A stretch of DNA of 22,516 nt. It comes from a virus. Shown here piece after piece: positions 2,048 to 22,516 of the stretch. Under the pieces are notes generated by a model that did no database searches, had not been told where the DNA came from, and worked only from the letters and a program-made list of their open reading frames with translations. The position numbers were made by a program, and so were the translations under genes. The DNA lies in IMG/VR virus record IMGVR_UViG_3300012920_005438, positions 1-22,516 of that record. One strand, written 5' to 3'. Position 1 is the stretch's first letter. Each line of letters begins with the position of its first letter.

Positions 2048-2244
2048 GGTATATTAAGTCCTTGATAATTAAGAAAAAATCTAGGGAGATTAAAAACACC
2101 CTTAAGGGAATCGGTACAAGTTTTTTAGGAACACCTATTACAACTTTTACCTGTATTAAATGTAAAAAGAATTACTGCACTGGGGTATTTGATTTTAAGG
2201 AGGACAATCATATATGCCCTAGTTGCAGTGATAGAAAGGAATAA
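2041..2244 (+). CDS. Small zinc-ribbon protein
   Basis: The preferred start is ATG 2041, which overlaps the last codons and stop of the DUF932 gene and has GGAAAGAG just upstream; an in-frame ATG at 2029 is also possible. The product of about 67 residues has a very basic first half (KSLIIKKKSREIKNTLKG) and a Cys4 zinc ribbon in the second half: CIKC followed by a further CTG, then CPSC close to the C terminus. The layout suggests nucleic-acid binding. The stop lies one base before the DNA polymerase ATG, so the two are translated in tandem. No specific family is recognised. Confidence 0.6.
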   Translation: MLRYIKSLIIKKKSREIKNTLKGIGTSFLGTPITTFTCIKCKKNYCTGVFDFKEDNHICPSCSDRKE

Positions 2245-2245
2245 A

Positions 2246-4060
2246 ATGAAATTAGTTTTTGATATAGAAACTGATGGTCTTGATGCAACAAAGATATGGT
2301 GCTTAGTAGCTATCGATCCGATAACTAATACAATCTATAAATATTCTGATTATGACGATAGTCGTATGTCTATTGCTGAGGGTATTAGGTTACTACAGAG
2401 TGCTGAAGCTCTTATTGGTCATAATATAATTGGATATGATATACCAATGATTAAGAAAATACTTAACATTGATTTATTCGATATAAAATTATATGATACA
2501 TGGATAATGAGCCAAGTACTTAATTGGAAACGAAATCATAAGCATGGACTAGGAGGTTGGGGTCAACACCTCAACTATCCTAAGTTTGAATTTGATGATT
2601 GGTCTGCTTATACTGAACCTATGATGGATTACTGTATAAGAGATGTTAAGCTTAATGTTGCAGTATGGAAAGCATTACAAATAGAGTATCAGCAACAGGT
2701 AAATACTAAGCCTATGTTAGCTTTAGGTCTTAGACATGAGCATGATGCAGCTATCTTTGAAGCAAAAGTAAGATCTAAGGGTTGGCTATTTGATTGTGAT
2801 GCAGCCCATAAGCTGCATGAAAATATGACAGATGAGCTTAATGCTATTGAAAGTAGAATACACCCTAAGTTACCTGAAATGACTATCATGGTAGATAAAG
2901 CACCTAAGAAAGCTAAATATACTAAGAAAGGAGCTTTTACTGCTGTAACTAAACGATTGCTTACAGAATATCTTGGTGAAGAGCCTAATGAAGATACATG
3001 GAATCCTAATCAAGAGTTTCAACGTAGTTATAAAACACAGGTTACACTAAAGAATATGGAAGAAGTAAAAGAATATCTATATACTATTGGTTGGAAACCT
3101 GATGATTGGAATTACAAGAAAGTTGGTTATGAATTTCATAAGACAAGTCCAAAGCTTACTACAACTAGTCTTGAATTATTAGGCGATGTAGGTAAAGATA
3201 TCGATAGATATTATACTACTAGATCTAGAAAATCAATATTAGAAGGTTGGATAGAAGCACTTAAAGATAAAAGACTTCATGGTAAAATGTGGACTATAGG
3301 TACACCTACATTCAGAGCTAGACATGAGATAATTGCTAATCTGCCTAGTGTTGAAGCAGCATGGGGTAAAGAAATGCGTTCTTTGTTTATATGTGAAGAA
3401 GGCTATAAGATAGTGGGAGCTGACTCATCTGGTAATCAAATGAGAGCTTTATGTCATTACATAGGTGATGACGACTTTACTAAGGAGGTTACGAGTGGAG
3501 ATATACATAGTTATAATGCTTCTATTCTTGGAAGTAGTCGTGGTGATGCTAAGAGGTGGTTATATGCCTATCTCTTTGGTGGAGGTGGTAAGAAGCTTGG
3601 TACGATTCTTACAGGTAAACCTGATGATAAAGCTGGTAATGAATCTAAAGCAAAGTATCAATCAGCAATTCCAGGATTGGCTAAAGTTAAGGCAAAACTT
3701 GACACCATATTCAATAAGACCTCTAATGGATATGGATCAGCCTTCATTCCAGCTCTTGATGGTCGTAGGGTTTATGTTAATAGTGCTCATCAATCACTAA
3801 ACTATTTATTACAATCAGCAGAAGCAATAACTTGTAAAGCAGCTATAAGTTATGCAATGAAAATGATAAAACAAGAAGAGCTAGATGCTTATCCAGTTAT
3901 ATTCTATCACGATGAAATGGCTTGGGTAGCTCATGTAGCTCATGCAGAAAGAGTAAGGCAAATATGTATAGAAGCCTTTAAAGAAGCACCTAAACAATTC
4001 AATGTAACATGTATGGATGGTGATAGTATCATCGGTGATTGTTACGCAGATGTTCATTAG
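2246..4060 (+). CDS. Family A DNA polymerase with 3'-5' exonuclease
   Basis: The replicative polymerase, 604 residues from the ATG at 2246, chosen because TAGAAAGGA (2232-2240) precedes it and the protein then begins MKLVFDIETDG; an upstream in-frame ATG at 2189 lies inside the zinc-ribbon gene. Exonuclease motifs: FDIE (D6, E8), GHNIIGYD (D65) and YCIRD (D133). Polymerase motifs: A, GADSSGNQMR (D393); B, RGDAKRWLYAYLFGG (R432, K436, Y440, F444); C, YHDE (H555, D556). HQSLNYLLQSAEA matches the T7 segment before motif C. T7 gp5 is about 704 residues, so this enzyme is shorter. No thioredoxin-binding insert can be assigned by eye. It likely works with the primase-helicase and exonuclease downstream. 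Confidence 0.95.
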   Translation: MKLVFDIETDGLDATKIWCLVAIDPITNTIYKYSDYDDSRMSIAEGIRLLQSAEALIGHNIIGYDIPMIKKILNIDLFDIKLYDTWIMSQVLNWKRNHKHGLGGWGQHLNYPKFEFDDWSAYTEPMMDYCIRDVKLNVAVWKALQIEYQQQVNTKPMLALGLRHEHDAAIFEAKVRSKGWLFDCDAAHKLHENMTDELNAIESRIHPKLPEMTIMVDKAPKKAKYTKKGAFTAVTKRLLTEYLGEEPNEDTWNPNQEFQRSYKTQVTLKNMEEVKEYLYTIGWKPDDWNYKKVGYEFHKTSPKLTTTSLELLGDVGKDIDRYYTTRSRKSILEGWIEALKDKRLHGKMWTIGTPTFRARHEIIANLPSVEAAWGKEMRSLFICEEGYKIVGADSSGNQMRALCHYIGDDDFTKEVTSGDIHSYNASILGSSRGDAKRWLYAYLFGGGGKKLGTILTGKPDDKAGNESKAKYQSAIPGLAKVKAKLDTIFNKTSNGYGSAFIPALDGRRVYVNSAHQSLNYLLQSAEAITCKAAISYAMKMIKQEELDAYPVIFYHDEMAWVAHVAHAERVRQICIEAFKEAPKQFNVTCMDGDSIIGDCYADVH

Positions 4061-4327: not shown

Positions 4328-5028
4328 TAGCAGTCGTAGATGTCGATAGCTGTATATATCAAGCAGCATGGCAAAGAGAAACTATAGAAGATGCTGTAGA
4401 AAATTATAAGTATCTCGTAGAAAAGAATTGGATTGGTCCTGTATGGGCTGATGAAACTATAGTATACTGTGGTGGTAAAGATAACTTTAGATATAGGCTT
4501 TGTCCTAATTATAAAGCTAATCGTAAAGAAGCACCTGCAGATGCTAAATTATTTAAACCATTAATGAAAGAAGTAGTTAAAAGAGGTTTAGCTATACCTT
4601 CTGATGGTATGGAAGCAGATGATATGGTAAGAATAAAATCTGTAGAGCTTACTAAGAAAGGAGTTGAGCATACAGTTGTCCATATCGATAAAGATTTAGA
4701 TTGTATCGTAGGTAATCATTATAATCCTAGACATGCTAAGTTCTATGATATAGATGAAGATCAAGCCGATCTAAATTACTGGACTCAAATACTTAAAGGT
4801 GATCCAACAGATAATCTTCCTGGATTACCTAAAGTAGGTCCAAAGACTGCTGAGAAAATGCTTGATGGTATTCCTCTTGGTAAACGTAAAGCTAGAGTTC
4901 TTGCAGCATATAGAGCTAAGTTCGGTGTTGTAAATTGGAAAGATAAACTTATGGAAACTGCTAATGGTATTCATATCTTAAGACATAAAGATGATTACTT
5001 TAGTATAGAAAGGAAATTAAATGACTAG
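4324..5028 (+). CDS. 5'-3' exonuclease / flap endonuclease (T7 gp6-like)
   Basis: The 234-residue protein belongs to the FEN/5'-3' exonuclease superfamily. Metal-binding acids are visible in VVDVDS (D6, D8), MEADDM (E97, D99, D100) and HIDKDLD (D122, D124). The helix-hairpin-helix DNA-binding region is GDPTDNLPGLPKVGPKTAEK (159-178), and a basic arch segment is RLCPNYKANRK. An in-frame GTG lies at 4315, but ATG 4324 is preferred because AAAGG (4311-4315) lies eight bases before it and it forms an ATGA overlap with the previous stop. It likely removes RNA primers and degrades host DNA to recycle nucleotides, as T7 gp6 does. It overlaps the GIY-YIG gene by eight bases. Confidence 0.9.
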   Translation: MIAVVDVDSCIYQAAWQRETIEDAVENYKYLVEKNWIGPVWADETIVYCGGKDNFRYRLCPNYKANRKEAPADAKLFKPLMKEVVKRGLAIPSDGMEADDMVRIKSVELTKKGVEHTVVHIDKDLDCIVGNHYNPRHAKFYDIDEDQADLNYWTQILKGDPTDNLPGLPKVGPKTAEKMLDGIPLGKRKARVLAAYRAKFGVVNWKDKLMETANGIHILRHKDDYFSIERKLND

Positions 5029-5725
5029 TAATGTAACTGATCATCAACGATACACAGATGTAGCCATAACTGATGTATCTAAAGTTGATAAGAATGGTTG
5101 GGTAGGAATATCTACACTTGAGCATGGTGAAATAAGATGTAAATCTAATTTACGAACTAAGCTAGGCTTAAAGAAAGAATGGTTTGGTAATTTAACTGTA
5201 TGGGTTAATCCTAGTAATGATACTGTATGTGTAGCCTTTGACCAAAAAGCCTATTTGGCAGATGGAGATAATGCAAAACCTAATGGTCAATGGGAGGTAA
5301 ACTTTCATAATAATCCTTATGAAGCAGAAGGTTTTGTTTATATGATTATTGAAAAGAGTACTGGTAAACGATATATAGGTAAAAAGTCTTATTGGAATTA
5401 CAGTAAGGGTAAAAGAGTAAGACAATCTAATTGGAAGACTTATGCTTCAAGTAGCTCAGATATAGCTAGTAAAGTAGCTGAGAATAAATCTGATTATCAA
5501 TTTATTATGCTACATGAAGCACCAGATAAATCTGCATTAAATTATTTAGAAATCTTTTATCAAATAGATTATGCAGTTCTTACATCAATAAATGAAAAGG
5601 GCGAAAAGATATTCTATAATAAGACTATCGGTAGCGAAAAGTGGATGTTAACAGAGAAATTTATAGGAGTATTCAATGAAACCTTTAACGAGGAATCCGT
5701 TTCACAGATACAATATACCACCTAA
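5021..5725 (+). CDS. GIY-YIG endonuclease with extra N-terminal domain
   Basis: The C-terminal half of this 234-residue protein is a GIY-YIG nuclease domain: GFVYMI (104-109), KRYIGKK (116-122), a WKTYASSSSDI segment (138-148), NYLEIFYQ with likely catalytic E177, and FYNK with N200. The first 100 residues form a separate, strand-rich region not recognised (conserved-looking WVGISTLEHGEI and GNLTVWVNPS). ATG 5021 follows TAGAAAGGA (5006-5014) and overlaps the exonuclease stop. T7 has a Holliday-junction resolvase (gp3) in its replication cluster; this enzyme could fill a host-DNA-degrading or branch-cutting role, or be a homing-type nuclease. Position inside the coupled operon favours a core function. 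Confidence 0.75.
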   Translation: MTSNVTDHQRYTDVAITDVSKVDKNGWVGISTLEHGEIRCKSNLRTKLGLKKEWFGNLTVWVNPSNDTVCVAFDQKAYLADGDNAKPNGQWEVNFHNNPYEAEGFVYMIIEKSTGKRYIGKKSYWNYSKGKRVRQSNWKTYASSSSDIASKVAENKSDYQFIMLHEAPDKSALNYLEIFYQIDYAVLTSINEKGEKIFYNKTIGSEKWMLTEKFIGVFNETFNEESVSQIQYTT

Positions 5726-8394: not shown

Positions 8395-10512
8395 ATGCAA
8401 GATATTCAAAAATACTTAATTGAAAAGATTAGAGGTAATGATCTTGGTGTAAAACCTAGACGTAACCTACAATTAATGCGTATGATTGATAATGAAGGGG
8501 TTGATATGTTAGACTCTTTCATAGATGATATTATTACGCATTCAAGAAAAATAATTCAAAGATGTTTTAAACGAAGTAAAGTTGAAGGTGAAACTCCTAT
8601 TACTCAAGTATCAATGGCTATTGGTAAGTATATAGTTTCTAGCTGGGATAGAGAGAATACTAACTTTAGAGATCATGTTAGAGTTGGTGATCTTATCGTT
8701 GAAGCATTTGTAATGTGTAATTATCTTACTATCTCTGTAGGGCATGTTAAGAGTAGAAAGCCAGTTACTATTCATGCTACTGAAAGATGGGGTGAATTAG
8801 AAGCTATTGCTGGTAAAACTACTTGTATTAGTGCTACACCCATTCCCAAGATAACTACCTTATTTCAAAATAATGGTAAGCCTATTATAAAGACTTGGGA
8901 TAAATCTAAAGAGCAAAAGTTTATTAAATATCTTGATAAGCCATTTATTAAAGCAATAGATAAACTTCAGGCTACTAGATTTGTTGTTAATAAAGATGTG
9001 CATGAAGCAATAAATAATCATTGGGGATTATTTGTTAAGCATGAAATATTTGATGGAGAAGATAAAGCTGAAAATGATAAGCTATATCAAAGACAAGCTT
9101 CAAAGAATAGAGAAATTAAAGAAGTAATGGCTTCAGCAGAGAAATGGTTAGATAAAGAATTTAGTTTTTATGTTGATGCAGACTATAGAGGTCGCCTATA
9201 TTATAGTGAACCTTTCTTTAACTTTCAAGGAGCTGATGTAGCTAGAAGTCAATTACTATTTGCTAAAGGAAAACCATTTGATAGCAATGCAAACTTTTGG
9301 TTAGCAGTTCATACTGCTTGTTCATATAATGAGTCATATCCTATAGATGAAATACCTGATTGGGTTACTACTGATTATAAAGAATTACTTAAATCAGAAG
9401 AGCTAGATAGTATTTCTGTAGATAAAATGACACTTGAAGATCGAGCTATGTGGACTCAAAAGAATATGGATCATATACTTGAATTAGGTGAAATGAAAAT
9501 CATAGCAGAAGAAGCAGAAAAGAATATTGCTTTTCTAGCTTGTTGTATTGAGTGGTTTAAGTTTTGGAAATATAAAGATGATTATCGTATTCAGCTACCT
9601 ATACCTATTGATGGTGCTAATAATGGTTGGCAACACTTAGGAGCTATGTCTAAAGATAGATTAACTGGAGAGCTAGTCGGTCTTATACCTACTAAAACTC
9701 AAAATGATTTCTATGTAAGAGTAGCTAAGAGATTATGTGAAAAGATGCCTGATTGGTTTGAAGAAAGAAATATGCCAATGAAGCATATAAGGAAAGGTAT
9801 CGCTAAACGAGGTGCTATGACTAGAGCTTATAGCTGTGGTCAAAAGAAAATGTCTGAATCAATGTATAGCGATTGTTATCAATATGGCTATACTAAAACT
9901 TACGATATTAATACTTGGGATTGTGATGAGTTAAGCTTTCAGGTCATCAAAGCTATTGAGGAAGTATGTCCTGGACCTTTAGAAACTATGAAGTATCTTC
10001 AACGACTTGCTGATCAAGAGATCTCTAATTGGTATAAGACTTATGGTACAGACAGAGGTCGAGGGATTAAATGGGAAACCGAATCAGGTTTTCCAGTTAT
10101 ATATGAATGTTTTAGAACTAGACCTGCGAAAGTAGATTGCTATGGTTTTAATACTCCTGATGGTGAGATTAGATTTAAGCATGTAATACGAGAGAAGACT
10201 GATATACCTGATAGACGAGGTTTTATGTGTGGCATTAGTCCTAACTTCGTTCATAGTAAAGATGCAGCTCATCTTGCATTAGTAGTTTCTAAATGGGATG
10301 ATGATTTTGCTGCTGTACATGATTCATTTAATGCTCATGCAGATAACATAGAAGAATTAATGGAAATATCTAGAGATGTATTCATTAGTATATATGATAA
10401 AGAAAATTATTATGAAGATATCCCATTCGGAAGAGGCTATAATGGTAATAGACCTACAATAGGTGGGTTAGATGTTAAGCAAGTAGCTAACTCTGATTAC
10501 TTCTTTTGTTAA
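8395..10512 (+). CDS. T7-type single-subunit RNA polymerase
   Basis: This 705-residue enzyme has all core T7 RNA polymerase motifs: DADYRGRLYY (261-270) with a following NFQGAD and LLFAKGKP; motif A PIDGANNGWQH (404-414, D406); motif B AKRGAMTRAYSCG (470-482, K471, Y479); motif C AVHDSFNAH (640-648, H642, D643). The end, SDYFFC, resembles the T7 FAFA foot, so the C terminus is complete. T7 RNAP has 883 residues; the missing length is mostly N-terminal, the promoter-binding part. The Gly after the motif B Tyr is Ser, and the Arg four before the Lys is Lys. A strong host-type promoter and AGAGAGGA precede it, and a terminator follows. It presumably transcribes later genes, including the opposite arm, from promoters not visible here. 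Confidence 0.95.
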   Translation: MQDIQKYLIEKIRGNDLGVKPRRNLQLMRMIDNEGVDMLDSFIDDIITHSRKIIQRCFKRSKVEGETPITQVSMAIGKYIVSSWDRENTNFRDHVRVGDLIVEAFVMCNYLTISVGHVKSRKPVTIHATERWGELEAIAGKTTCISATPIPKITTLFQNNGKPIIKTWDKSKEQKFIKYLDKPFIKAIDKLQATRFVVNKDVHEAINNHWGLFVKHEIFDGEDKAENDKLYQRQASKNREIKEVMASAEKWLDKEFSFYVDADYRGRLYYSEPFFNFQGADVARSQLLFAKGKPFDSNANFWLAVHTACSYNESYPIDEIPDWVTTDYKELLKSEELDSISVDKMTLEDRAMWTQKNMDHILELGEMKIIAEEAEKNIAFLACCIEWFKFWKYKDDYRIQLPIPIDGANNGWQHLGAMSKDRLTGELVGLIPTKTQNDFYVRVAKRLCEKMPDWFEERNMPMKHIRKGIAKRGAMTRAYSCGQKKMSESMYSDCYQYGYTKTYDINTWDCDELSFQVIKAIEEVCPGPLETMKYLQRLADQEISNWYKTYGTDRGRGIKWETESGFPVIYECFRTRPAKVDCYGFNTPDGEIRFKHVIREKTDIPDRRGFMCGISPNFVHSKDAAHLALVVSKWDDDFAAVHDSFNAHADNIEELMEISRDVFISIYDKENYYEDIPFGRGYNGNRPTIGGLDVKQVANSDYFFC

Positions 10513-10515
10513 ATT

Positions 10516-10558
10516 AAAATACCCCATAAGGAATTAATCCCTATGGGGTATTTTTTTT
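10516..10558. terminator. Bidirectional intrinsic terminator between convergent arms
   Basis: ATACCCCATAAGG (10519-10531) pairs with CCCTATGGGGTAT (10539-10551) around a loop of seven bases, with one A-C mismatch. T8 follows on the + strand, and an A-rich flank (AAATTAAAAT) precedes it, giving a U-rich tract on the - strand. It lies exactly between the stop of the RNA polymerase gene and the stop of the convergent 81-aa gene, so it should end both transcripts. Confidence 0.9.
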
Positions 10559-10802
10559 ATAGTAATTTAGATAGCTCTTCTCTAGTCTCAAAAGCTAATT
10601 TATCTGCTTTCTTTTTAGCTTCTCTTTCAGGGTAGCCATCAAACTTAAAAGCCTTCATATTATTCTCATGCACCTTTTCAATCATTGCATCATTAATTTT
10701 TGGTGTATATGCTACATCAGGATCTAAGCCAAATTGAGATACAAATTCCATATCATCAATGTCTACTCCTTGCATTGCTAATCTATTATAATTTTTTTTC
10801 AT
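10557..10802 (-). CDS. Small hypothetical protein, 81 aa, last gene of the virion operon
   Basis: The 81-residue product is not recognised. It has an acidic first half (DIDDMEFVSQFGLDPD) and a charged helical C terminus (REAKKKADKLAFETREELSK). A very good ribosome site, AGGAGGA on the - strand (10807-10813), overlaps the stop of the 1317-aa gene, and the stop codon lies at the edge of the shared terminator. As the last gene of the operon it may be a small virion component or a late accessory protein. Confidence 0.6.
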   Translation of the reverse strand: MKKNYNRLAMQGVDIDDMEFVSQFGLDPDVAYTPKINDAMIEKVHENNMKAFKFDGYPEREAKKKADKLAFETREELSKLL

Positions 10803-10811
10803 AGTATCCTC

Positions 10812-13800
10812 CTAGCTATAATTTCTTGTTATAAATCTTAATACTCTAGTACCATCAGCTAATGTTTCTGGCTTTCTTAATAAGTCTTGATAAGCTTCTT
10901 TTGTAAACGCATTAGAGTTCTTTAACCACTCATTTAACATTGGTGATAATCCCATATGATCATTAATAGAGAAAAACAATTTCTTTAATTGTAATCCTGT
11001 TACCTTTGAACCTTCAGGTTTAAAACCATTTTCAACTGCACGATTCATAAGTATCATATCTCTATCTGATACATTCTGTGCTAAATCTTTTCTTTCTTTA
11101 GCTCGCTTAAATACATCATCAATATAGTTCTGCATAGCTCTATACTTTCTATTTTCTAAAGATAATTCATAAATGCTACTATCTTTTACTTTATCTCTAA
11201 ATATTAATTTAGCTTCATTAATAGCATCTAAAATAACTTTAGATGTTTTATATTGCATATTAACATCTGTAAATGCTTTATTAATTGCTTCTAAATATTC
11301 TTTTACTGATGTAGCATCTACAATGATCGCATCATGCACTGGGATCATATAAGCTGAACCCTCTTGAGGTCGTCTTTTATCGTTGACTCTATTAATTGCT
11401 GTTGCCATTATTCCTGAATCTATATTTTGTATAAGTAAAACTGGAATTTGATTAGATACTTCTTGACCAAAAGGAGTTGGATCTGCAGTTCTCCATTCAT
11501 TAGTTTGATTATCGTATACTCTTTGTCGTTTAGATCTAGACGAACCACTTGGTTTCATTGAACCTAAATTACGTCTAACTAATCCTCTTGATGTAGGTAT
11601 TTCAATCGATTTATTACTTTCAAAATATTCTTTAGAACCCATAAAAATAGTTTCACCTAATGGACCTTTAAATCTAGGTGTTATTCCTACCATTGAAAAT
11701 AATTTTCCAACATTTTTTAATACTTTTTGATGTTTTAAATCTAATGTTAGTGATAATGTTGATCCTATTATTTCATTTAAATCATCTATAATTTCATTAT
11801 CAGTATAATCAGGCAGCATATTACTGTAGCCTTTTAGTCTATCTTTAATTATTTCTCCATATTTTCCATTATAAAAGTTTTCTGCTGTTTCTCTATGAAA
11901 CATATGATACTTTCCATATGATGTTTCCATTAATGGTTGCTTAGATAATTCTTTAAATACACCAACAGCATCTTCTGAACCTTTGTATTCATCAAATATC
12001 TCTAACCAAAAAGATCTTTTATGATCTATTCTAGAACTCCCACCTTTAAATACATAGCCTTCAATGGCTGCTTGAGTATTATCTCCAAATAATTTACGAA
12101 TATCACCTTGAGGAATTATATTATCTTCAGATGCAAATATAAGTCCTGTTCTTTTCATTAGGTTTATATCACCATTTTGAAATGCTTGTATCGCAATTCC
12201 ATTTTGTTTTCCATCAAATTGTGCTTGAGCCCTTGGTGAAAATGTTGTTGCTTTAGGTACAGTTTCAGTCCATACTACATCTTTAGATATTTCCATCATT
12301 TGAACTTCTAATTCTGAAGCTCTTATCTCATCTCCAGCTAGTGTAGCTTCATTATACTCATCTTGTAAAGTTGCTAATTGATTTTCTTCATCGATACTTA
12401 ATATCTTACCCTGTTGAATTAACTGTGGACCTGTTTCTTCTGTATTAGATGCATCATGCCAATTAGCAAAATCAATATATGATTGAAAAATATAATTCCA
12501 ATCTTCTCTACTTCTTAATTGTTCTAATGCAGCATAACCTAACAAATCTTCTTTTGATTTTGCCATAAGTGCATTTAATGCTACTATATTTATTCTTCTA
12601 TTAGATGATAATGCTCTTAGTTCTTTTCCTATCTTAAGCCAATTATCATATGTTGATCTTGCTTCAGGTGTTGCTCTACTTATTACTCTATTTGTAGCAT
12701 CAATTATACTATTAGGTCCAAGATTTGATGTGCTAACACCATTAGTCATCTCAACTGGTAATAAATTTTTTCCTATAACTAATTTCCAACCTTCCATTAT
12801 TTCTTTTTGTTTTGATGAAAGAGGTTGTTTAAAATCAATAACAACTCGTCTTGCATTTCCCATAATGTTTCTAGCCATTTTATCATTTTGAGGATTCATA
12901 ACAGAATTTCTAAAATGAAATCGACCATTAGCTAAAGCATTAAAAGGTTTCATATAAAATACTTTTCCTTTTAATCTATCAGCATCCATTCCAGTTTCAT
13001 ATAGTTGTCTTGCTTTTAATTTCATTTGAGTGTTAGCATGATTAATAGCTGTTTGTGGATTTTCACTTGCTCCTGGATTTTTAATTGCATGATTAAAATG
13101 TTCATTCCATTTTGCTTCATGTAAATCTAAAACTTCAGCTAAAGGATCTACTGAATAAAATTTACTTCTATCAACTCCAGCTTGTTTTGTAGCTAAAGCA
13201 GTAACATCTGCTATGTATTTATTAATTTCTTCTTGCGATTTACCTCTTAAAGCTACATTACCTTGAGCTTGTTCTGTTGCTCCTTGTTTAATTGCTTCTA
13301 ATTCTTGAGGACTTACAGTTCTTTTAGGTGGATGCATTAGCATATCTACAACTGGTCTTTCATTTTTCATTTGAACTGGTCCAATGATATATTCAATAAC
13401 AGATTTTACATAGGTAGTTGCGTTATCTTGAATAGCAAATTCAACTCCTCCTAAATGGGCTTTAGTTTTTCGTTGTATTCTTTGTGTTTTTGCCATTTCT
13501 GATTTAACAGTAACTGGTCCTTTATCTTTAGGCGTATATGTAAAAGGTATTTTTTCACCTTCAGTTATACGAGTAGGTATCATACTAACATCTTCTTTTG
13601 TTCGCATACCTGTTGCCCATAAGACATCTCTTGCAGTATTGAAGTATCTTACTCCGTCTTCGCTTATACCATAATAGTATTCTCCAGTTTCTTCATCATA
13701 CACAGTATCAAAGAAACCAAGATCATTTATTATACCAAATGCCATGCCATCAAATAATGCTGCAACTTTTGGATTAGTATTAACTAACTGATCTCCAGCT

Positions 13801-14765
13801 CCCCCATAATCTGAATAATACTTTCCTACTTTATTAGGGTTTTCAACTAAAGAATTTAATATATTAACTCCTATTCTTCCTCTTAAATAATTAGCATCTA
13901 ATTTTTCACCTTGAGGAATACCTGCTTCTGGAAGATCTATATCTTGACCAGCAAAGAAAGTTGCCATATCGGCATCATCTATTAATGCTTCTTCTTTTCC
14001 TTTTGCAAAAGAAACTTGTTTACGATTAACTTGATCTTGAATTAATCCTAGTACTTCCATTGATAATGCATTAGCAAATCGTCTATTAAATTTTAAAGGA
14101 GCACCAATCTCTCTATTAGGCTGATTTAACATACCCTTTTCTACCATATAATTTTTTAATGACATTGTATCAGGTGTATTATCTGTTTCTAATTGTTTTT
14201 CTAGATTAGGTAATATTGAATTTATTTGTAAACCAGTTGCAATTACTGCATTAACAGTTTCTTCAGGTACTGTTCTTTTATTTTTAAATTTAGCTCTAAG
14301 TGTTGCAGCATCTGTAAAATTATAAAAGTCATCATCAAGATAAGGAGCTGGTGTAAACTCTGTTTGACCTTGTCGTTCAGATTCTGTTAGTTGTGCTCTT
14401 GCTTTCTCGTTATCTACAGGTGCAGTAGCATCTGCAAATGGTAAAAAAGGTCCAGGCATTGCGAGTTTAGTTTTATCTTGAGTTCCTCTTGCTGGTGAGC
14501 CTTCTTTTACTCTTTCAATTAACTTTTCTCTACCAGAAACTCCAAGTCCTTCTTCATCTTTTTGTTGTTCTACTGGTTCAGTAACCCCTAACTGATCTAC
14601 AGGTAATACTGGAGTTGCACCTTTTAATACATTAGTACCTGTTAATTCAGACTCATCAGCACCTATCCTTTGTCTACGTTTATCTTGAATAATATCATCT
14701 GTTTCTTCGACTTTAGGTTGTCCAATTTTATCTATGTTATCAATAGTACTTCTTATCTTTCCCAT
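10812..14765 (-). CDS. Putative virion-encapsidated single-subunit RNA polymerase (N4 vRNAP-like)
   Basis: The 1317-residue protein would usually be labelled an internal virion protein, but it shows the single-subunit RNA polymerase signature in order: ANGRFHFRNSVMNPQNDK (612-629), matching T7 DWRGRVY...NPQGND, with R615; motif A QFDGKQNGIAIQAF (849-862, D851); motif B KELSKQPLMETSYGK (938-952, K942, Y950, G951); motif C MIPVHDAIIVDA (1140-1151, H1144, D1145). All core catalytic residues are kept. About 600 residues precede the first motif, with an acidic, Gln-rich and probably disordered first 150. It sits among ejection proteins, as expected for an RNA polymerase injected with the DNA. AGGAG (14772-14776) supports the start. 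It is unlike the 705-aa enzyme outside these motifs. Confidence 0.8.
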   Translation of the reverse strand: MGKIRSTIDNIDKIGQPKVEETDDIIQDKRRQRIGADESELTGTNVLKGATPVLPVDQLGVTEPVEQQKDEEGLGVSGREKLIERVKEGSPARGTQDKTKLAMPGPFLPFADATAPVDNEKARAQLTESERQGQTEFTPAPYLDDDFYNFTDAATLRAKFKNKRTVPEETVNAVIATGLQINSILPNLEKQLETDNTPDTMSLKNYMVEKGMLNQPNREIGAPLKFNRRFANALSMEVLGLIQDQVNRKQVSFAKGKEEALIDDADMATFFAGQDIDLPEAGIPQGEKLDANYLRGRIGVNILNSLVENPNKVGKYYSDYGGAGDQLVNTNPKVAALFDGMAFGIINDLGFFDTVYDEETGEYYYGISEDGVRYFNTARDVLWATGMRTKEDVSMIPTRITEGEKIPFTYTPKDKGPVTVKSEMAKTQRIQRKTKAHLGGVEFAIQDNATTYVKSVIEYIIGPVQMKNERPVVDMLMHPPKRTVSPQELEAIKQGATEQAQGNVALRGKSQEEINKYIADVTALATKQAGVDRSKFYSVDPLAEVLDLHEAKWNEHFNHAIKNPGASENPQTAINHANTQMKLKARQLYETGMDADRLKGKVFYMKPFNALANGRFHFRNSVMNPQNDKMARNIMGNARRVVIDFKQPLSSKQKEIMEGWKLVIGKNLLPVEMTNGVSTSNLGPNSIIDATNRVISRATPEARSTYDNWLKIGKELRALSSNRRINIVALNALMAKSKEDLLGYAALEQLRSREDWNYIFQSYIDFANWHDASNTEETGPQLIQQGKILSIDEENQLATLQDEYNEATLAGDEIRASELEVQMMEISKDVVWTETVPKATTFSPRAQAQFDGKQNGIAIQAFQNGDINLMKRTGLIFASEDNIIPQGDIRKLFGDNTQAAIEGYVFKGGSSRIDHKRSFWLEIFDEYKGSEDAVGVFKELSKQPLMETSYGKYHMFHRETAENFYNGKYGEIIKDRLKGYSNMLPDYTDNEIIDDLNEIIGSTLSLTLDLKHQKVLKNVGKLFSMVGITPRFKGPLGETIFMGSKEYFESNKSIEIPTSRGLVRRNLGSMKPSGSSRSKRQRVYDNQTNEWRTADPTPFGQEVSNQIPVLLIQNIDSGIMATAINRVNDKRRPQEGSAYMIPVHDAIIVDATSVKEYLEAINKAFTDVNMQYKTSKVILDAINEAKLIFRDKVKDSSIYELSLENRKYRAMQNYIDDVFKRAKERKDLAQNVSDRDMILMNRAVENGFKPEGSKVTGLQLKKLFFSINDHMGLSPMLNEWLKNSNAFTKEAYQDLLRKPETLADGTRVLRFITRNYS

Positions 14766-14777
14766 TTATATCTCCTA

Positions 14778-17700
14778 TTATCCTAATAAAAATTCTTTTA
14801 AACTTCTATTAGGTTTGTCTATAAATTCACGACCTGTAAATACTTTATCTTCAATCACTTCTTGATCAGTTAGTCCTCTAGCAATACCAGCTCTTACTTC
14901 AGGTAATACCGACACAAAAGGAGCTATTTTTAAAGTATTTCTAATTCCTCTTTCAGTTTCTCCTTCTATAAAATCAGCACCAGCACCTAATGCATTACTC
15001 ATTATTCTAGCTGATGGTCCAGCTTCACCTACAATAGAATTAAATAACCACTCAATACCATCATCTCTTTGTGGATATAATGGATAAATAAAATCAGCTA
15101 CTCTTTCATACTGCCCTATTATTCCTGAAGAATAAATAGCTCTTTGAGTATAACCCCATCCATCTAAATAAGGACTTGGCTGACCAAATTTAATTAAGTC
15201 TTTTAAGTATTGAGATGCTCCTCCTAATGCAAGCATTGTTACTATTAAAACAAATGTATCATATTTCATTTGCTTAGTGCCTTTTATTATTCCTCTATTC
15301 CATAGCTTTGGTACAATATTAGCAGTGAATGTACTAATAAAACCATTAAACTGAGTCATTAATTGATAATGAGGGTCTTGAAAGAATAAAGGTCTATTTG
15401 CAGCTTGAGGATTTTGAATTCTCTCATTAACAAATCTATATATTCCTGTTTCAATTTGATCATTAATTTCAGTTTGAATTTCATTCATTCTTTGTCTTAA
15501 TGTTACAACTTTTCTGTTCTCACTATTAGGATATTTTTTAGCTAAAGCCTCTAAAGAAGCTTGTCTAGGCGAAGGATCTTTTGCATATTTCTTTTCATCT
15601 ATTGTTGTATAGTCTTTAGTATCTGTAATATCTAGTAATGCATCTCTATCTATTTCTTTATGATCTTCTAACATATCATAGAGATGCTGTACATTTATTC
15701 CTAAATCATTTAAACTTAAAAATGATTTCATTTCAAATTCATTAAATTTTTCTGTATCAAAGACTTCTTCAGTTTCTCTTCTGCCTTGTGCAGTTACTAC
15801 TTGTACCATTTTCTTAGGTGCAGTTTGTAAATCATCTAAAGCACCTCTAATATAATCAACAGCAAAGCCTGCATTCATTCTTCTTTGAAATTGAGTTAAT
15901 TGTTTAATACCTATTAACTTAAAAAAGCTTTCATGTAATTTTAAAAAGGCAATATCTCTTTCACCAGTAGCTAATCGATCTACAACTGCATTTTGAGCAT
16001 AAGATAAACCAGACCTATCTAACATCTTAGCCATTCTATTTACTTCTTTTGCAGCCTTATCATCCCAAGCTCTAGCTATATTTTTAACTAACTTATCAGT
16101 AGCTGTTTTATATTCTGTATCATTATTTAAATTAAAATAAATCATAGCTGTTTCTGGTATCGAAGAAATAGCTGATAAAGGTAAACCAGCAAATATAGAT
16201 AAGCTAGTGAAATATCTGTTTAAAGCTGCTAATTTAGGATTTTCAATTCTATTAAAGTTACCATGTGTTGAATCAATAATTGCTTTTGTATACCAAGCAA
16301 ATTGATTAATGTCATCCTGTGTCATCTTATTAGGACCGACTTTTAAATTTTCTTCTTGTTGTAACTCTTTAAATAGTTTATCTAACTTCCAACCACCTTC
16401 ACCAAAATACTTTGTAGATGCTGCATACTTAGCACCTTCTACTTGTGTTCGATTTAATGATTCAAATATATTTCTACTAGCAAATTCTGAAAAACCATCC
16501 ATTTGAGAAGTATCTAACATTCCTTTAGTAAAAGCTGTTGGGTTCATTTTAACCCCACCTACTGCTGAATACTCTTTTCCAAAAGAAGTTTCACCTCGAT
16601 AAGCTATGCTTTCAAAAGTTTGTTGTACAAATTCTTCTCCAGTTACTGAATCTCTTGCTTGCACAAAGTTTTTTCTTAACCAATCTTTAAATCCAGCAGG
16701 GTTTTTTCTTACTGCATTATAATCAAATCCCATGGCTTTCCACCAATAATCATCATCATATGAAAATTGATTGTTAACTCTATCGCCATTCTCTCTACTC
16801 CATTCATTAGCCATCTCACGATAAATAGATTCATAGGAGTTTCTAAACATATTGCCTATCTTACCTAAGTTCTCTATCTTTGCATCAGCATTTTTTCCAT
16901 ACTTTGAAGTATCAATTTCATTTTTTCTTCCAGCTTTCCATTTAGCGTAATCGCCACTACGACCAAACTCAATTAACTCAGCAGAAATTGCTTTTACTCT
17001 TTTAGAATTTAAAGTCTTATAGCCATACATATCTGCAATCATATCTTCATCTAATTCATTTTTAAATTTAGATACAAGACTATCTTGATATTGTTTAAAG
17101 TTCTTTCCTGAATGATATACTCCAGTAGTAACTTGACCTATCAATGCAAATATTTTTAATGCTGTTTCACTTTGCACTAATTTTTTCATTTCAATAGCTG
17201 ATTTTTCTGCTGCGTTAACTAATCTTCCTAACCCTCGTATTGTTGCATCAAAATATTCAGTTAAATCATTGTTATTCTTAAAAAAATTTCTTACTCCTCG
17301 ATTATTCTTTTTCCAAAGATCAGCTGCACTAGTAAAAAACCCTCGGTCTTGTGCATCAGAATCAGCTTTATCTCTTAAATTATCTTGCTTACTATTTTTA
17401 AAAGGTTGATTAACAATTTCTCCAGTAGTCTTAACATAATTACCCTTGTTTAATTCTTTAACTTTTCTATTCTCTATAGGGCGTACTCTATTAATATCAT
17501 GGTTTAGTAATGAAGAACCTACCATTTGATTTTTTAATTGAGTATATGTATTAGTTGCTGTACTAATTGGTCCACCTAAGAACGCTCCAGCTAATCCAGC
17601 ATTGATTAATCGATTCTTAACTTCATCAGGCGTAAATTCTGTTTCAGAAAAGTTTTGAGCAGCATACATTTGAATTCCTTCTTGTAGTAATTCAGTGCCA

Positions 17701-18974
17701 CCTTCACCTACAGCTCCAGCTGCAGTTGCCTTAGCTACATTAAGACCTGAAAACTTAGCTATATCATCAGGGTCTAATCTTAGTAGCCCACGCATTAATT
17801 CTGCTTTTTGAGATGAAATAGCTTTACCTATTAATATTCTTGATTGAGATTCAGTTATACCTTCTTTCTTTGCATATGCTTTAACTAATCTATTTAAACC
17901 TGCTTGGCTTAATAAAGTAGATGCAGGCAATAAAGCTTGCATACCTATTCGATCTAATGTTGCTGCTGCTATACCTGTTGTAGTCGCTGCAAGAAATTGA
18001 GGCATGCCTTTTTCGCCTTCCATTTCATTCCAGACTTGACCAGCATATATCATTGATATCGGAGCATAAGCTGTTGCAACACCTGCTGCTGGACCTAACA
18101 AAGCAGACATTGGTACTGCAGCTGCAAAAGATCCGAATGTACCTATAAGATAGGGAGCAGACATAACTGCATTGTTAGTAATCCATTGCCAACTATCCCA
18201 TACATTTTCTATATCTTCGTAATTATTTAAAGTATAAGGAGCATCTGCCATTCTAAAGCGAGCATTAAGAACACCTTGATCTCCCAAGTTTTCTAGCATT
18301 TCAGAATCAGTAACTTCACCTATAGCATTAAGATAACCCCAAAATCCTTCTTTGAGTCCATCCCATCCTTTACCCCATGATTCAGATATTTGATTAGAAA
18401 AACCTTTAGCTTCATTAGTTAAAGTTCTACTTTCATCTCGATGAGCTACATCATAATGGATATTAGGATTAAATCCAGCTTCATTAACTGCTAAGCCTTT
18501 AAAAGCTAAACCTTCTTTTACTAATTTATCATTTATTTTTTTAGAAGTTTCAGCATAAGGATCAACATAATTATTATATGTCTCTCTCAAAGCACCCATT
18601 TCGTTCTTAGCAATCAAAGCTTCAGGAGTTGTAAATTTACTTACTTCAGCTATTCCACGAGCAGTTAATACACGATCTAAGTATTGACCTTCTTTATTAA
18701 TTAATTGAACTAGCTTTCTGCCAGCTGAATCTACTTCACCAGTATCTACTATTATATTAAAGCCACCTTTATTTTGTACATCAATAACAGCATCTGTTTG
18801 GCTCGGACCTAAAGTATGACCCCCTTTATATTTAAGTTCTCCATCGTCATTATAGAATCGTTCTACTTCTCTTGTATCGTAATCTTTTAATCTAAATGAT
18901 TCGCCTTTATCATTTGTAAAAGTATCACCATCAATCCAAGTATATGTTTCATTATTTGAATCTAAGAATTTCAT
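14778..18974 (-). CDS. Ejection/internal virion protein with N-terminal SNase-like nuclease domain
   Basis: This 1398-residue protein begins with a staphylococcal-nuclease-like domain (about 8-115): WIDGDTF (D15, D17), FRLKDYDTRE (R28, D33, T34, E36), and DSAGRKLVQL with R86. These align with SNase D19/D21, R35, D40, E43 and R87, so the active site looks complete. Hydrophobic, small-residue-rich segments follow at about 268-350 and 410-475, then a long charged helical body, a strongly hydrophobic stretch at about 1239-1257 and a Gly/Pro-rich C terminus. The size, position beside a transglycosylase protein and membrane-prone segments resemble T7-type core proteins that form the DNA-ejection channel. 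The start follows AAGGA (18984-18988), and the gene begins one base after the upstream stop. Confidence 0.8.
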   Translation of the reverse strand: MKFLDSNNETYTWIDGDTFTNDKGESFRLKDYDTREVERFYNDDGELKYKGGHTLGPSQTDAVIDVQNKGGFNIIVDTGEVDSAGRKLVQLINKEGQYLDRVLTARGIAEVSKFTTPEALIAKNEMGALRETYNNYVDPYAETSKKINDKLVKEGLAFKGLAVNEAGFNPNIHYDVAHRDESRTLTNEAKGFSNQISESWGKGWDGLKEGFWGYLNAIGEVTDSEMLENLGDQGVLNARFRMADAPYTLNNYEDIENVWDSWQWITNNAVMSAPYLIGTFGSFAAAVPMSALLGPAAGVATAYAPISMIYAGQVWNEMEGEKGMPQFLAATTTGIAAATLDRIGMQALLPASTLLSQAGLNRLVKAYAKKEGITESQSRILIGKAISSQKAELMRGLLRLDPDDIAKFSGLNVAKATAAGAVGEGGTELLQEGIQMYAAQNFSETEFTPDEVKNRLINAGLAGAFLGGPISTATNTYTQLKNQMVGSSLLNHDINRVRPIENRKVKELNKGNYVKTTGEIVNQPFKNSKQDNLRDKADSDAQDRGFFTSAADLWKKNNRGVRNFFKNNNDLTEYFDATIRGLGRLVNAAEKSAIEMKKLVQSETALKIFALIGQVTTGVYHSGKNFKQYQDSLVSKFKNELDEDMIADMYGYKTLNSKRVKAISAELIEFGRSGDYAKWKAGRKNEIDTSKYGKNADAKIENLGKIGNMFRNSYESIYREMANEWSRENGDRVNNQFSYDDDYWWKAMGFDYNAVRKNPAGFKDWLRKNFVQARDSVTGEEFVQQTFESIAYRGETSFGKEYSAVGGVKMNPTAFTKGMLDTSQMDGFSEFASRNIFESLNRTQVEGAKYAASTKYFGEGGWKLDKLFKELQQEENLKVGPNKMTQDDINQFAWYTKAIIDSTHGNFNRIENPKLAALNRYFTSLSIFAGLPLSAISSIPETAMIYFNLNNDTEYKTATDKLVKNIARAWDDKAAKEVNRMAKMLDRSGLSYAQNAVVDRLATGERDIAFLKLHESFFKLIGIKQLTQFQRRMNAGFAVDYIRGALDDLQTAPKKMVQVVTAQGRRETEEVFDTEKFNEFEMKSFLSLNDLGINVQHLYDMLEDHKEIDRDALLDITDTKDYTTIDEKKYAKDPSPRQASLEALAKKYPNSENRKVVTLRQRMNEIQTEINDQIETGIYRFVNERIQNPQAANRPLFFQDPHYQLMTQFNGFISTFTANIVPKLWNRGIIKGTKQMKYDTFVLIVTMLALGGASQYLKDLIKFGQPSPYLDGWGYTQRAIYSSGIIGQYERVADFIYPLYPQRDDGIEWLFNSIVGEAGPSARIMSNALGAGADFIEGETERGIRNTLKIAPFVSVLPEVRAGIARGLTDQEVIEDKVFTGREFIDKPNRSLKEFLLG

Positions 18975-18975
18975 A

Positions 18976-21582
18976 TTACTTTTTCCTTGGTTTATATAAA
19001 GCTAATGCTGCTGGTTCGTCTCTTAGAAAGTTGATTGCCCACCAACCAAATCCACTAAAACCTTTATCTTCAGGAGCACCAGAGTTAAATGACTCTTTTA
19101 ATTTAGGATCTGCTTTTGTCCATATTTCTTTTAATAACTTCCATTCTTGCCTATAATCTGCAGCATCTGTACTACTCTGTTTAATCATTTCATTAATAAC
19201 AGCAAAGTTTTCAGTATTTAATTTTTTATTTTTATTTTCACCAGTGCCACTATCATTAAGATCATTAAAAGATATTATCTTATCAGTCTCTAATGGCATT
19301 TTAACCATATTATAATAAGTTTCTAAGGATTGAGGCTTATCAAATCCTTCTTCTCCTTTATTATCTAAATGTTTTCTAAAATCTTTATAGTAAAGTTCAA
19401 TAGCTCTTTCCATAAACTTATTCATATTGCTTCTATCTTTAGGATCAACACCAAACTTTATCATATCTTTATAAAGTAAATCAGCAGCTTCTGCAGCTAA
19501 TAAAGGTTGAGGTGCTCTTATTAACTCATCACCTTCTTTATTATTGTTAAAAGTTAATTCAGTTGCCTTAAGACTTTTCATGTATTTATCTGTAATTTTT
19601 TCTATATCCATTTGATCATCATCATAGGTAAATATTCTACCTTTCAATGAATCAATCGTATATTGATTACCACCTCTATCTACGAGTCTATATTGACTTT
19701 TTCCAATTTTAATCTTTTCCATTGGTCCATAGCCTCTTACCCACACTCTAGAACCAGTGCCAGCATCAAGAATACCTGTACCTATTCTTTCTAAATCATT
19801 TAAATCACCTGAATATCTATATTTCATAAGAGATCTTTTAGTATAATTTTTAAGATTATCTTTATTAGTAACAAACTTTTGTCTTGCAGCTGATTGAGCA
19901 TCTACTCGTTTAATATATTGTTTAGTTGCATACTGCAAAGAAGCACTATGATTATAGCCAAATGCTCTAGAACCTAAATACATCAATGATAATCTAGCTA
20001 ACTCTTCACCACTAAACATATCTTTAAACATATTAGAAAACCATCTAGTCATTTTATCTTGAAGAGTCTCAGGTTGTTTTGCACCTTCTTTCTCTACATC
20101 ACTTGGTTTTCTTTTATCTAAATCATTAGATACAGCAGGATCAACCTTATCTTTCATACTATCTAATATTTCTGCTGCATTAGTTAATGCTTTAACTGTA
20201 GGTTTTTCTGATAATAATTTATTTTTCTTTTCAGTTAATGATTTAACTATATTAGAATCATTCTTATATAATTCTATTTGTTTATCAATTTTATTTACTT
20301 CAGCATTAATTTTATTTTCTTCTTCTATTTTAATATTTTCTTTTATTTTAATTTGATCTTTATTATATGCATCATTCTGTTTATTAGCATTCTTAAAAGC
20401 TTCCATGTCTCTATCATACATTTCTTTTGTATAATTTTCATCATTGGCTATTCTATCAGCTAATTCTTTAGGTATATTAGAATCTATCCTATTAGGATTA
20501 ACAGATACAACATAACCAAGCGAATCTAATTTAACATCAGGTCCATAAAGCTCTATATTCTTTTTTCTTCTTTCTTGTGCATCATCATATGTAGTTCCAA
20601 ACAAAGAAAAATTACCAGATCTATCATAAAAACTATCAGGAAAAATCTTATCATCTTTTTTATCTTTAGCTCCTGTAGAAGCCATAGCAGACATCATTCC
20701 AGACTTTGTTGGTGTCATATCAAATGTCATCATAGGGACTTCTTTTATTGCTGATTTTACTTTATCTGGATATTCTTTACCTCTTGGTCCAAGTTCTTCT
20801 ACTCCTCCTATTGATTTTAAAACATTACCTACACCTGAATGATATGATTGTAAGACTTGGTCTAAATTAAAATTAGGATTTTTATTAGCAATACCTTGTA
20901 AATATTCACCAGCAAATTTTCTAGATATTTCAGGATCAAATCGATCTGCTAATGATATAGGCTTTACACCATATCCAGGATTTAAAGCTGTTGCTTCTGT
21001 AATTTGATATGGTCCTGCAGCTCCAGCTTCTGAAATTTTATTTGGATCTCCTCCTGATTCTGTCATCATTACTGCATCTATTATTTCTGGTGTTATTTTA
21101 ATTCCTTGATCAGCATAAGTAGGTACTCGACCACCTTCATTAAATCTAATAGCAAATGTTTTTAAGAAAGCATTTTTAAAACTATCATAGTCCATTCCTA
21201 ATGATGGATTTGCTATTCGATTTTGATATTCTTCAAACTTATCAAGAATTGTGCCTTCAGAAATATTAGGGTTAGGTATTGAATACATTTTACCATCTGA
21301 TCCACTAGATGCGTAAGTCGGTATTGGACCACCTTGTTTATCTTGAATATCTCTACCTATTTCATTAAGTTTATCTAACATAGGTTGAACTCCAGGAATC
21401 CTAGAAGCTTCTGCATTAATAACATTTTCACCAGCAGTTAACCAAGCTGGATATTTGTCTGTACCTTTAGGTCCAGGTTGAAATGCTGGAGGTATCTCAT
21501 TCATTTCAGGAACATTAGCTTCAAATTCATAAGATAACATATTTCCAAATCTATCTTTTTGTGTAAACTTTTTTAAGTGCAT
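18976..21582 (-). CDS. Virion protein with lytic transglycosylase domain
   Basis: The 868-residue protein contains a soluble lytic transglycosylase domain at about 160-275: MMTESGGDP (catalytic E175), GAAGPYQITEA (187-197) and LQSYHSGVGNV (244-254). It would locally open peptidoglycan during DNA entry, as the gp16 N-terminal domain does in T7. Before it lie a structural-protein-type segment, WLTAGENVINAEAS (47-60), and two copies of a GGxxPTYA motif (94-101, 150-157). A long Lys/Glu/Asn-rich, probably helical region (about 380-510) follows, then a C-terminal half of unknown fold. The start is set by GGAGGT (fwd 21591-21596). It shares one base with the upstream stop and is followed immediately by the nuclease-ejection gene. 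Confidence 0.85.
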   Translation of the reverse strand: MHLKKFTQKDRFGNMLSYEFEANVPEMNEIPPAFQPGPKGTDKYPAWLTAGENVINAEASRIPGVQPMLDKLNEIGRDIQDKQGGPIPTYASSGSDGKMYSIPNPNISEGTILDKFEEYQNRIANPSLGMDYDSFKNAFLKTFAIRFNEGGRVPTYADQGIKITPEIIDAVMMTESGGDPNKISEAGAAGPYQITEATALNPGYGVKPISLADRFDPEISRKFAGEYLQGIANKNPNFNLDQVLQSYHSGVGNVLKSIGGVEELGPRGKEYPDKVKSAIKEVPMMTFDMTPTKSGMMSAMASTGAKDKKDDKIFPDSFYDRSGNFSLFGTTYDDAQERRKKNIELYGPDVKLDSLGYVVSVNPNRIDSNIPKELADRIANDENYTKEMYDRDMEAFKNANKQNDAYNKDQIKIKENIKIEEENKINAEVNKIDKQIELYKNDSNIVKSLTEKKNKLLSEKPTVKALTNAAEILDSMKDKVDPAVSNDLDKRKPSDVEKEGAKQPETLQDKMTRWFSNMFKDMFSGEELARLSLMYLGSRAFGYNHSASLQYATKQYIKRVDAQSAARQKFVTNKDNLKNYTKRSLMKYRYSGDLNDLERIGTGILDAGTGSRVWVRGYGPMEKIKIGKSQYRLVDRGGNQYTIDSLKGRIFTYDDDQMDIEKITDKYMKSLKATELTFNNNKEGDELIRAPQPLLAAEAADLLYKDMIKFGVDPKDRSNMNKFMERAIELYYKDFRKHLDNKGEEGFDKPQSLETYYNMVKMPLETDKIISFNDLNDSGTGENKNKKLNTENFAVINEMIKQSSTDAADYRQEWKLLKEIWTKADPKLKESFNSGAPEDKGFSGFGWWAINFLRDEPAALALYKPRKK

Positions 21583-22516
21583 TACTTACCACCTCCACCT
21601 ACTTGACCACCTTGACTAAGGTGTTGTACCTTACCACCTTTACTAAAACCACCTGTATCTATACTATCTGAATATCCTGAGTCTTCATAACTACTATCTT
21701 CATTACTATCATAACTTGAATTATCTGTAGTACTACCAATTGGATCGCTATAATCAACACTACCAGATGAAAATGTATTTGTACTACTAAATTGAGAGCC
21801 TTTAGGTGCTGCTCCATCAATATAACCTACTCCTTGTATTGCATTTATTGTAGGATTATTTTGACCTTGTAAAGAACTTTCAGCTATACCCTCATCTAAA
21901 GCAATCTTTTTAGCAATAGTATCTTTTTCATCTTGAGTTGTTCCACCCTCAGATAATGGGCTATTAGCTACTGCAAATTGAAAGCTTTGAGCTTGTGGAT
22001 TAGGTCTATCTTTATCTCTATCATAAGCAAATTGATTATCTGAATCTCCAAATACATTACCTACTGGATCTTCTAGCAAATAATTAGTAAATGCTTGAGA
22101 AGTAGCAAATTCAGGATTAGCATAACCAGTTATAGGGTCATAACTTCTTCCTTCGTCAAATACACCTCCAGTTAAACTACTTATAGATCCATCACTCCCA
22201 TAACCTTCTGTTGGTACAGCAGGTCCAGTAAAAGAGCCAAGACCAATAGGAGATACTGCTGATACTATACCTGTAGGAGATGGACCAAATACTTCGCCTT
22301 TATTAAATATTCCTCTTTCTTCAGCATCATAATCTCTAGGAGCAACGGATGATGCAACATCCAAAGACATTTGTTTACTTGCTTCTGCACTTGGATTACT
22401 ACTATCTGAAGTATCCATAACAGCTTCATTATTTACTTGAGGTGGTTCATAATTAGGTTTAACTTTAGGCGATGGAGATGAATAATCAAACTTAGGTGGT
22501 ATATAACCAGAAGATA
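21582..22516 (-). CDS. Gly/Ser-rich virion-associated protein, N terminus outside window
   Basis: An ATG at 22418 gives 278 residues, but the frame stays open from there to the window edge, adding a Pro-rich stretch (YIPPKFDYSSPSPKVKPNYE), and no ribosome site precedes 22418. The true start is therefore probably outside, and at least 310 residues are present. The sequence is low in complexity, rich in Ser, Gly, Asp and Asn, with a Ser/Asp/Tyr repeat region (SYDSNEDSSYEDSGYSDS) near the end and a GG-motif C terminus (KGGKVQHLSQGGQVGGGGK). Such composition suggests a flexible structural or ejection-complex protein. It is the first visible gene of the virion operon and overlaps the next start as TAATG. 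Family not recognised. Confidence 0.6.
   Translation of the reverse strand, partial: SSGYIPPKFDYSSPSPKVKPNYEPPQVNNEAVMDTSDSSNPSAEASKQMSLDVASSVAPRDYDAEERGIFNKGEVFGPSPTGIVSAVSPIGLGSFTGPAVPTEGYGSDGSISSLTGGVFDEGRSYDPITGYANPEFATSQAFTNYLLEDPVGNVFGDSDNQFAYDRDKDRPNPQAQSFQFAVANSPLSEGGTTQDEKDTIAKKIALDEGIAESSLQGQNNPTINAIQGVGYIDGAAPKGSQFSSTNTFSSGSVDYSDPIGSTTDNSSYDSNEDSSYEDSGYSDSIDTGGFSKGGKVQHLSQGGQVGGGGK
21591..21596 (-). promoter_or_regulatory. Ribosome site encoded within a poly-Gly C terminus
   Basis: On the - strand the codons for the terminal Gly run (GGT GGA GGT GGT AAG TAA) contain GGAGGT, a full anti-Shine-Dalgarno match, eight bases before the ATG of the transglycosylase gene. The stop and start share one base (TAATG). 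This decides the start of the downstream gene and implies coupled translation. Confidence 0.7.

Follow-up and report, generated by a model that had tools for sequence, protein, structure and literature searches.

A compact single-subunit RNA polymerase, apparently of the N4 virion RNA polymerase lineage, encoded in the virion operon of an IMG/VR virus

The DNA analyzed here, hereafter the window, is the 22.5-kb marine virus record IMGVR_UViG_3300012920_005438 of IMG/VR (22,516 nucleotides), a fragment without the early region. The gene of interest lies at 10812-14765 on the minus strand, is the last large gene of the late (virion) operon, and encodes a cysteine-free protein of 1317 amino acids (aa) that resembles, at about one third of its size, the giant virion RNA polymerase (vRNAP) injected into bacteria by phage N4. 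An earlier note, made from the sequence alone, had read this protein as an active, encapsidated single-subunit RNA polymerase (RNAP). The open reading frame (ORF) is genuine, since it begins with an ATG at 14765 and the plus strand of the same region is rich in stop codons; AGGAGAT stands 5' of the start. R615, D851, K942, Y950, H1144, and D1145, which the note had assigned to single-subunit RNAP motifs, were all found at those positions, and the spacings it gave (91 residues from D851 to K942 and 203 from K942 to D1145) are correct.

The following active-site elements are all encoded on the minus strand. The GR...NPQ..K..R block (ANGR615...NPQND-K629; 12870-12929) includes R615, equivalent to N4 R424 and T7 R425, as well as K629 (N4 K437) and R632 (N4 R440). 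Motif A, QFDGKQNGIAI (12189-12221), has D851 for N4 D559 and T7 D537, with Q849 at the place of N4 E557, and motif B, K938-ELS-K942-QPLMETS-Y950-G (11913-11954), has K938, K942, P944, and Y950 for N4 R666, K670, P672, and Y678, respectively. D1116 (11418-11420), which is invariant in the family described below, is aligned with N4 D929, and motif C, PVHDA (IPVH1144D1145A; 11328-11342), has D1145 for N4 D951 and T7 D812 and H1144 for N4 F950 and T7 H811.

Relatives were collected from IMG/VR by a search with the 705-aa T7-type RNAP of the window, which gave 30 loci, and by a search with the family alignment, which gave 36 loci, many on the same contigs. Almost all of the 30 loci that extend far enough have an open frame of 1,165-1,320 residues at the same place and with the same motifs. 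The family alignment consists of 33 proteins, the window protein and 32 relatives from IMG/VR and Roseobacter phage CRP-7, the only phage record to match the family by tblastn against sequenced phages; tblastn searches of phages with four further members also matched CRP-7 alone, and a pattern scan of genome contigs gave 99 pattern matches with no homologue among them. Complete members are 1,156-1,317 aa long and comprise essentially the polymerase domain. Relatives are only 15-37% identical to the window protein. D851, Y950, D1116, and D1145 are kept in 33/33 proteins, and R615, K629, R632, and P944 in 32/33; the exception for R615 and K629 is the CRP-7 row, and another alignment of CRP-7 shows both the R and the K. 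Column 942 is basic in every protein (25 K and 8 R), column 1144 has H in 19 proteins and Y in the other 14, and column 849 is E in 15, Q in 15, and K in 3. The Arg at the motif B Lys (T7 K631, N4 K670) was seen in L012, L013, L014, L018, L027, L037, L033, and L050.

Some relatives are recognized directly by hidden Markov models (HMMs) of phage RNAPs: 6 of 18 match phrog_414 (best E 4.7e-8) and 5 of 18 match PF00940, the Autographiviridae RNAP family (best 0.0013), the latter below the curated cut-off (no more than 18.1 bits against a Pfam cut-off of 22), while the 1317-aa protein itself has no PF00940 match. An HMM of the first family alignment found no match among PDB sequences, and because the family is too divergent for such a search, profile-profile comparison was required. 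With hhalign, the family profile aligns to that of 12 Schitoviridae vRNAPs with E 1.8e-18 over 703 columns, starting from about residue 1144 of N4 gp50 and thus inside the N4 mini-vRNAP domain (gp50 residues 998-2103); the corresponding region of the window protein is residues ~220-1150 (11316-14108, minus strand). The match to T7-type RNAPs is far weaker (E 8.6e-5). Control profiles, one reversed and eight column-shuffled, gave E>0.1 against RNAP families, by which a chance motif match was rejected. The two halves of the family, with His or Tyr in motif C, each align to N4-type vRNAPs (E 7.5e-15 and 8.2e-11).

The register with N4 is exact, every mapped active-site residue of the 1317-aa protein aligning one to one. 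The equivalents of N4 K437, R440, and P672 are present in 12/12 Schitoviridae and 32/33 proteins of the present family, and the T7-type set has no such conservation; K437 and R440 of N4 touch the initiating nucleotide (PMC4496689). The KxP of motif B is common to N4 and the 1317-aa protein and is not shared by T7, and schitovirus JA-1 has a motif B (KNPLMTSIYG) almost the same as the KIPIMTSIYG of half the family. By these sequence comparisons, the closest relative of the family is the N4 vRNAP lineage, not T7.

An AlphaFold model of residues 118-1317 (pLDDT 74.4, pTM 0.74) was compared with PDB by Foldseek, and the best 50 matches were exclusively single-subunit RNAPs, namely yeast mitochondrial RNAP, T7 RNAP, N4 mini-vRNAP, and human POLRMT (8c5u, E 1.8e-13; T7 3e2e, 2.8e-11; N4 mini-vRNAP 3c3l, 9.2e-11; TMt 0.41-0.58). 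Matches in BFVD were mostly phage RNAPs and schitovirus vRNAPs. Fold and catalytic residues support placing the protein in the single-subunit (T7-like) RNAP superfamily. Because family A DNA polymerases and primases share the right-hand fold, and a weak match to a DNA polymerase PHROG (E 0.03) was obtained with one relative, the protein might instead be such an enzyme; however, the best PDB matches listed are all RNAPs, motif A reads DGxxxG, motif C reads HDA and not HDE, and the window has its own family A DNA polymerase gene at 2189-4060. The profile alignments and Foldseek largely refute this alternative, which we regard as scarcely credible. The RNAP identity proposed in the earlier note is now backed by largely independent lines, i.e., profile-profile alignment, Foldseek with a predicted structure, and direct HMM matches of relatives; homologues keep the motif residues and the model matches right-hand RNAP folds.

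The note had also called the enzyme active, and the conservation of its residues suggests that it is catalytically competent. A polymerase fold that has lost activity and serves as an ejection or internal core protein, aiding DNA entry while making no RNA, would agree with the great divergence of the family, with the Lys-to-Arg change of motif B in 8/33 members, and with H or Y in motif C. Against it, both catalytic Asp residues, Tyr950, Arg615, and Lys629 are kept despite that divergence in identity, and the motif C His position is F or Y in most of the N4-type vRNAPs sampled, including that of N4 (F), which is active (PMC4496689). We consider an inactive core protein very unlikely.

The genes around the polymerase form two convergent operons. 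Replication genes on the plus strand start at the left end of the window, and a Pfam scan identified a deoxyribosyltransferase-like protein, DUF932, the family A DNA polymerase, a 5'-3' exonuclease, a GIY-YIG endonuclease, a primase-helicase, and a dCMP deaminase; the GIY-YIG (SegE-like) domain protein is encoded at 5021-5725 (+) inside this operon (PF19835, E 7e-22). The last gene is that of the one-chain T7-type RNAP, of 705 aa with 15 cysteines (8395-10512, plus strand; PF00940, E 1.8e-53; phrog_414, E 2.5e-96), which the earlier note did not mention and which is directly convergent with the 1317-aa gene. A strong bidirectional intrinsic terminator at 10516-10558 (hairpin -21.1 kcal/mol, z -4.3), palindromic with an A-run on one side and a T-run on the other, divides the replication operon from the virion operon. 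In the order of transcription, the minus-strand virion operon encodes proteins of 278, 868, 1398, 1317, and 81 aa. The first (21582-22418, minus strand) has no family match, and its frame is open to the window edge so that the start is uncertain. It is followed by a cysteine-free internal virion protein of 868 aa with an SLT transglycosylase domain (18976-21582, minus strand; PF01464, E 7.8e-15) and a cysteine-free virion protein of ejection type, 1398 aa (14778-18974, minus strand; phrog_6958, virion structural protein, E 1.1e-21). The 81-aa protein (10557-10802, minus strand) is the product of the final operon gene, and a similar protein of 86 aa is encoded at the same place in the relative G001 (16552-16812, minus strand). 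These small proteins, encoded directly after the vRNAP-like gene, share KKNYNxLAxQGxDxDDMEFV, and could be a polymerase partner or a small virion protein.

This arrangement is conserved. One gene of the 1317-aa type and one PF00940 RNAP, convergent with each other, were found per record in 16/16 records, and in all 16 the partner RNAP is a one-chain open frame of 705-827 aa. In the records examined, the 1317-aa-type gene sits directly downstream of genes for ejection-type proteins, and the genes next upstream in the window, in relatives, and in CRP-7 are homologues of that for the 1398-aa virion protein. The relative G001 is 57.85 kb long with a 126-bp direct terminal repeat, and its late operon contains terminase, portal (the same PHROG as the N4 portal), scaffold, major head protein, and tail genes, an 888-aa transglycosylase, a 1432-aa virion protein, and the RNAP. 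Ribonucleotide reductase genes also occur inside the late/virion operon, at 33492-35234 of G001 (L083) and as gp44/gp46 of CRP-7.

The cysteine content is unusual. In addition to the 1317-aa protein with none, a single cysteine occurs in the 38,527 aa of the whole family, and the 12 Schitoviridae vRNAPs have 0 in 41,001 aa; the partner T7-type RNAPs of the same phages have 152 in 7,167 aa, about 15 each. Since the ribonucleotide reductase of the G001 late operon has 12 cysteines, membership in the operon alone is insufficient to explain the lack. Unfolding, passage through a channel, and refolding would plausibly disfavour cysteine, and the operon position and cysteine depletion together strongly suggest that the 1317-aa protein is packaged in the virion and ejected, a firmer basis for encapsidation than the earlier note had. 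A genuine but unpackaged RNAP, made late to transcribe late genes in the cell and adjoining virion genes by chance, has to be weighed here, since the whole case for packaging comes from gene position and composition and the CRP-7 paper mentions no such virion protein (PMC6918029); both points favour this rival. However, near-zero cysteine is what the ejected N4-type vRNAPs have, although cysteines abound in the T7-type RNAP and in the ribonucleotide reductase encoded in the late operon; the place directly behind the ejection-type proteins is fixed, and the profile is nearest to packaged vRNAPs. An unpackaged enzyme is therefore considered unlikely.

The explanation we prefer, with a probability of about 0.82, is a DNA-dependent single-subunit RNAP of the N4 lineage, synthesized late, carried in the virion, and delivered to the host for transcription of early genes. 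Inside the capsid the enzyme would accompany the products of the two large genes upstream of its own, and it would enter the host ahead of or together with the DNA. By analogy with N4, it would then transcribe early genes, including that of the 705-aa T7-type RNAP, which would handle later transcription. A polymerase made late, in a genome that also encodes a second phage RNAP, fits the N4 programme, in which the vRNAP serves early and RNAPII middle genes (PMC4496689, PMC12633501), and it is from this likeness that early transcription and a hand-over to the second RNAP are proposed.

Several further observations weigh against this explanation. The 1317-aa protein alone has no meaningful match in Pfam, PHROG, or PDB or in a phage tblastn search, so that the motif reading was the sole clue to its identity. 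The window protein has Q849 where N4 has E557, and Arg for the motif B Lys, as in 8/33 members, is unusual in an active single-subunit RNAP. N4-type hairpin promoters (3-nucleotide loop, stem of at least 6) occur at chance-level counts in the early regions of G001, G002, and CRP-7; the scan was limited to hairpins of this form, shorter stems or other promoter forms may be used, and the early region of this virus lies outside the window. A search for repeated words as promoters in intergenic regions returned only terminator-like T runs, Shine-Dalgarno-like words, and chance counts. In CRP-7 (L033, L088), AT-rich words around TCCTCTTAAT and GTATTAAAAG were seen in 7-8 intergenic gaps with one mismatch allowed, in an uncontrolled count, and they may serve one of the two RNAPs as promoters.

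Comparison with known systems places the protein nearest to N4 gp50. The likeness includes the profile homology of the polymerase domain with the same active-site residues, the equivalents of K437, R440, and P672 among them, as well as the absence of cysteine, a second RNAP in the genome, and a gene that comes last in the late operon, after those of the ejection proteins, and converges with the replication operon, although here the 81-aa gene then follows. The main difference is size, since members of the family have 1,156-1,317 aa against 3,022-3,632 aa in the 12 N4-type vRNAPs sampled and 2,842-3,820 aa in reference genomes (PMC10654107). N4-type vRNAPs have a membrane-type N-terminal domain and an autoinhibitory C-terminal domain (PMC12633501), and these fused domains of ~1000 and ~1400 aa, respectively, are missing in the 1317-aa protein, which has one profile match, to the polymerase region alone, and no giant three-part chain. 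The partner RNAP is one chain here and the split gp15/gp16 in N4, and in a published phylogenetic analysis the phages with a vRNAP carry a split RNAPII, with two uncertain exceptions (PMC4496689). The complete genome of G001 is ~58 kb, compared with ~66-78 kb for most schitovirus records sampled. A published IMG/VR survey dropped vRNAP candidates below 2,500 aa and required ExDGxxxG (PMC10654107), where the window protein reads QxDGxxxG; because both size and signature depart from that definition, we set the protein outside the published N4-vRNAP family and treat it as a new variant.

Within N4 gp50, only the polymerase domain has its counterpart in the 1317-aa protein, and the membrane and ejection functions that are fused to it in N4 would here fall to the separate 1398-aa and 868-aa proteins. 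A 98-column match of the 1398-aa protein to the N-terminal domain of N4 gp50 (331-438; hhalign, E 7.4e-5) weakly hints that the N4-type membrane part is here on this separate protein. The 1398-aa protein as the detached remainder of gp50 was rejected, since that match is the only one. AlphaFold modelled the 1398-aa protein poorly (pLDDT 57, pTM 0.40), and therefore the weak Foldseek matches to internal virion proteins (Vibrio phage VP2) and large polyvalent proteins count as weak support.

Among cultured phages, gp33 of CRP-7 (MK613349, QBQ72826, annotated as “hypothetical protein”) is a distant family member with about 15% identity, no cysteine, and the same genome place, and was found at E 1.7e-9 by a family profile built without it. 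Its neighbour gp34 is a homologue of the 1398-aa protein, and gp33 differs in motif A, which reads DARQSN. The authors of CRP-7 reported only the T7-type RNAP of ORF30, and gp33 was not recognized as an RNAP (PMC6918029). RNAPs of T7 and Autographiviridae share the superfamily fold and the residues equivalent to R425, D537, K631, Y639, and D812, but are unpackaged and cysteine-rich and give a much weaker profile match. Core/ejection proteins of the T7 gp16 type resemble the present protein in their place among internal virion proteins, one of which has a transglycosylase domain; however, gp16 has no polymerase domain, and the transglycosylase belongs here to a protein of its own. The putative vRNAPs proposed for StenR_269 and for Zobellviridae are likewise large cysteine-free internal proteins at a similar genome position (PMC10747016), and, in the portion of that paper available to us, were proposed from size, lack of cysteine, and helicity, with RNAP motif, profile, or fold evidence not among the grounds stated there. 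Two candidate precedents for a compact enzyme were rejected: phage Y3 of Poorviridae, with a reported N4-type vRNAP, has as its only gene of that scale a 10.3-kb ORF, and the vRNAP of R22Y, reported as 2,083 aa (PMC11705849), is still larger and comes from a schitovirus.

Encapsidated single-subunit RNAPs have been described as a hallmark that only N4-like viruses possess (PMC12633501). Judged from its sequence relationships, the present protein appears to be a new compact variant of encapsidated RNAP, for which we infer packaging. Such enzymes have been missed because single-sequence searches fail and because of the length and motif filters of the IMG/VR survey (PMC10654107). Taking the evidence jointly, a separate lineage of compact encapsidated RNAPs, with the polymerase apart from the membrane and ejection polypeptides, an unsplit partner, and perhaps a pre-fusion organization, is a tentative reading to which we give somewhat less than even odds. 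The compact lineage may represent the state preceding the fusion that gave the giant N4 vRNAP, or it may have been reduced secondarily by loss of domains, and its enzyme may work without the C-terminal autoinhibition of N4 and possibly without hairpin promoters. By parsimony, virion RNAPs have been considered older than split RNAPs (PMC4496689). The arrangement in these marine podoviruses, which are widespread and combine a natural “mini-vRNAP” with ejection proteins on chains of their own and a second RNAP that is not split, comes close to that conclusion. It allows a test of what packaging, passage through the tail, promoter recognition, and shut-off each require of the giant enzyme, and for packaging a direct test is at hand in CRP-7, a cultured distant relative.

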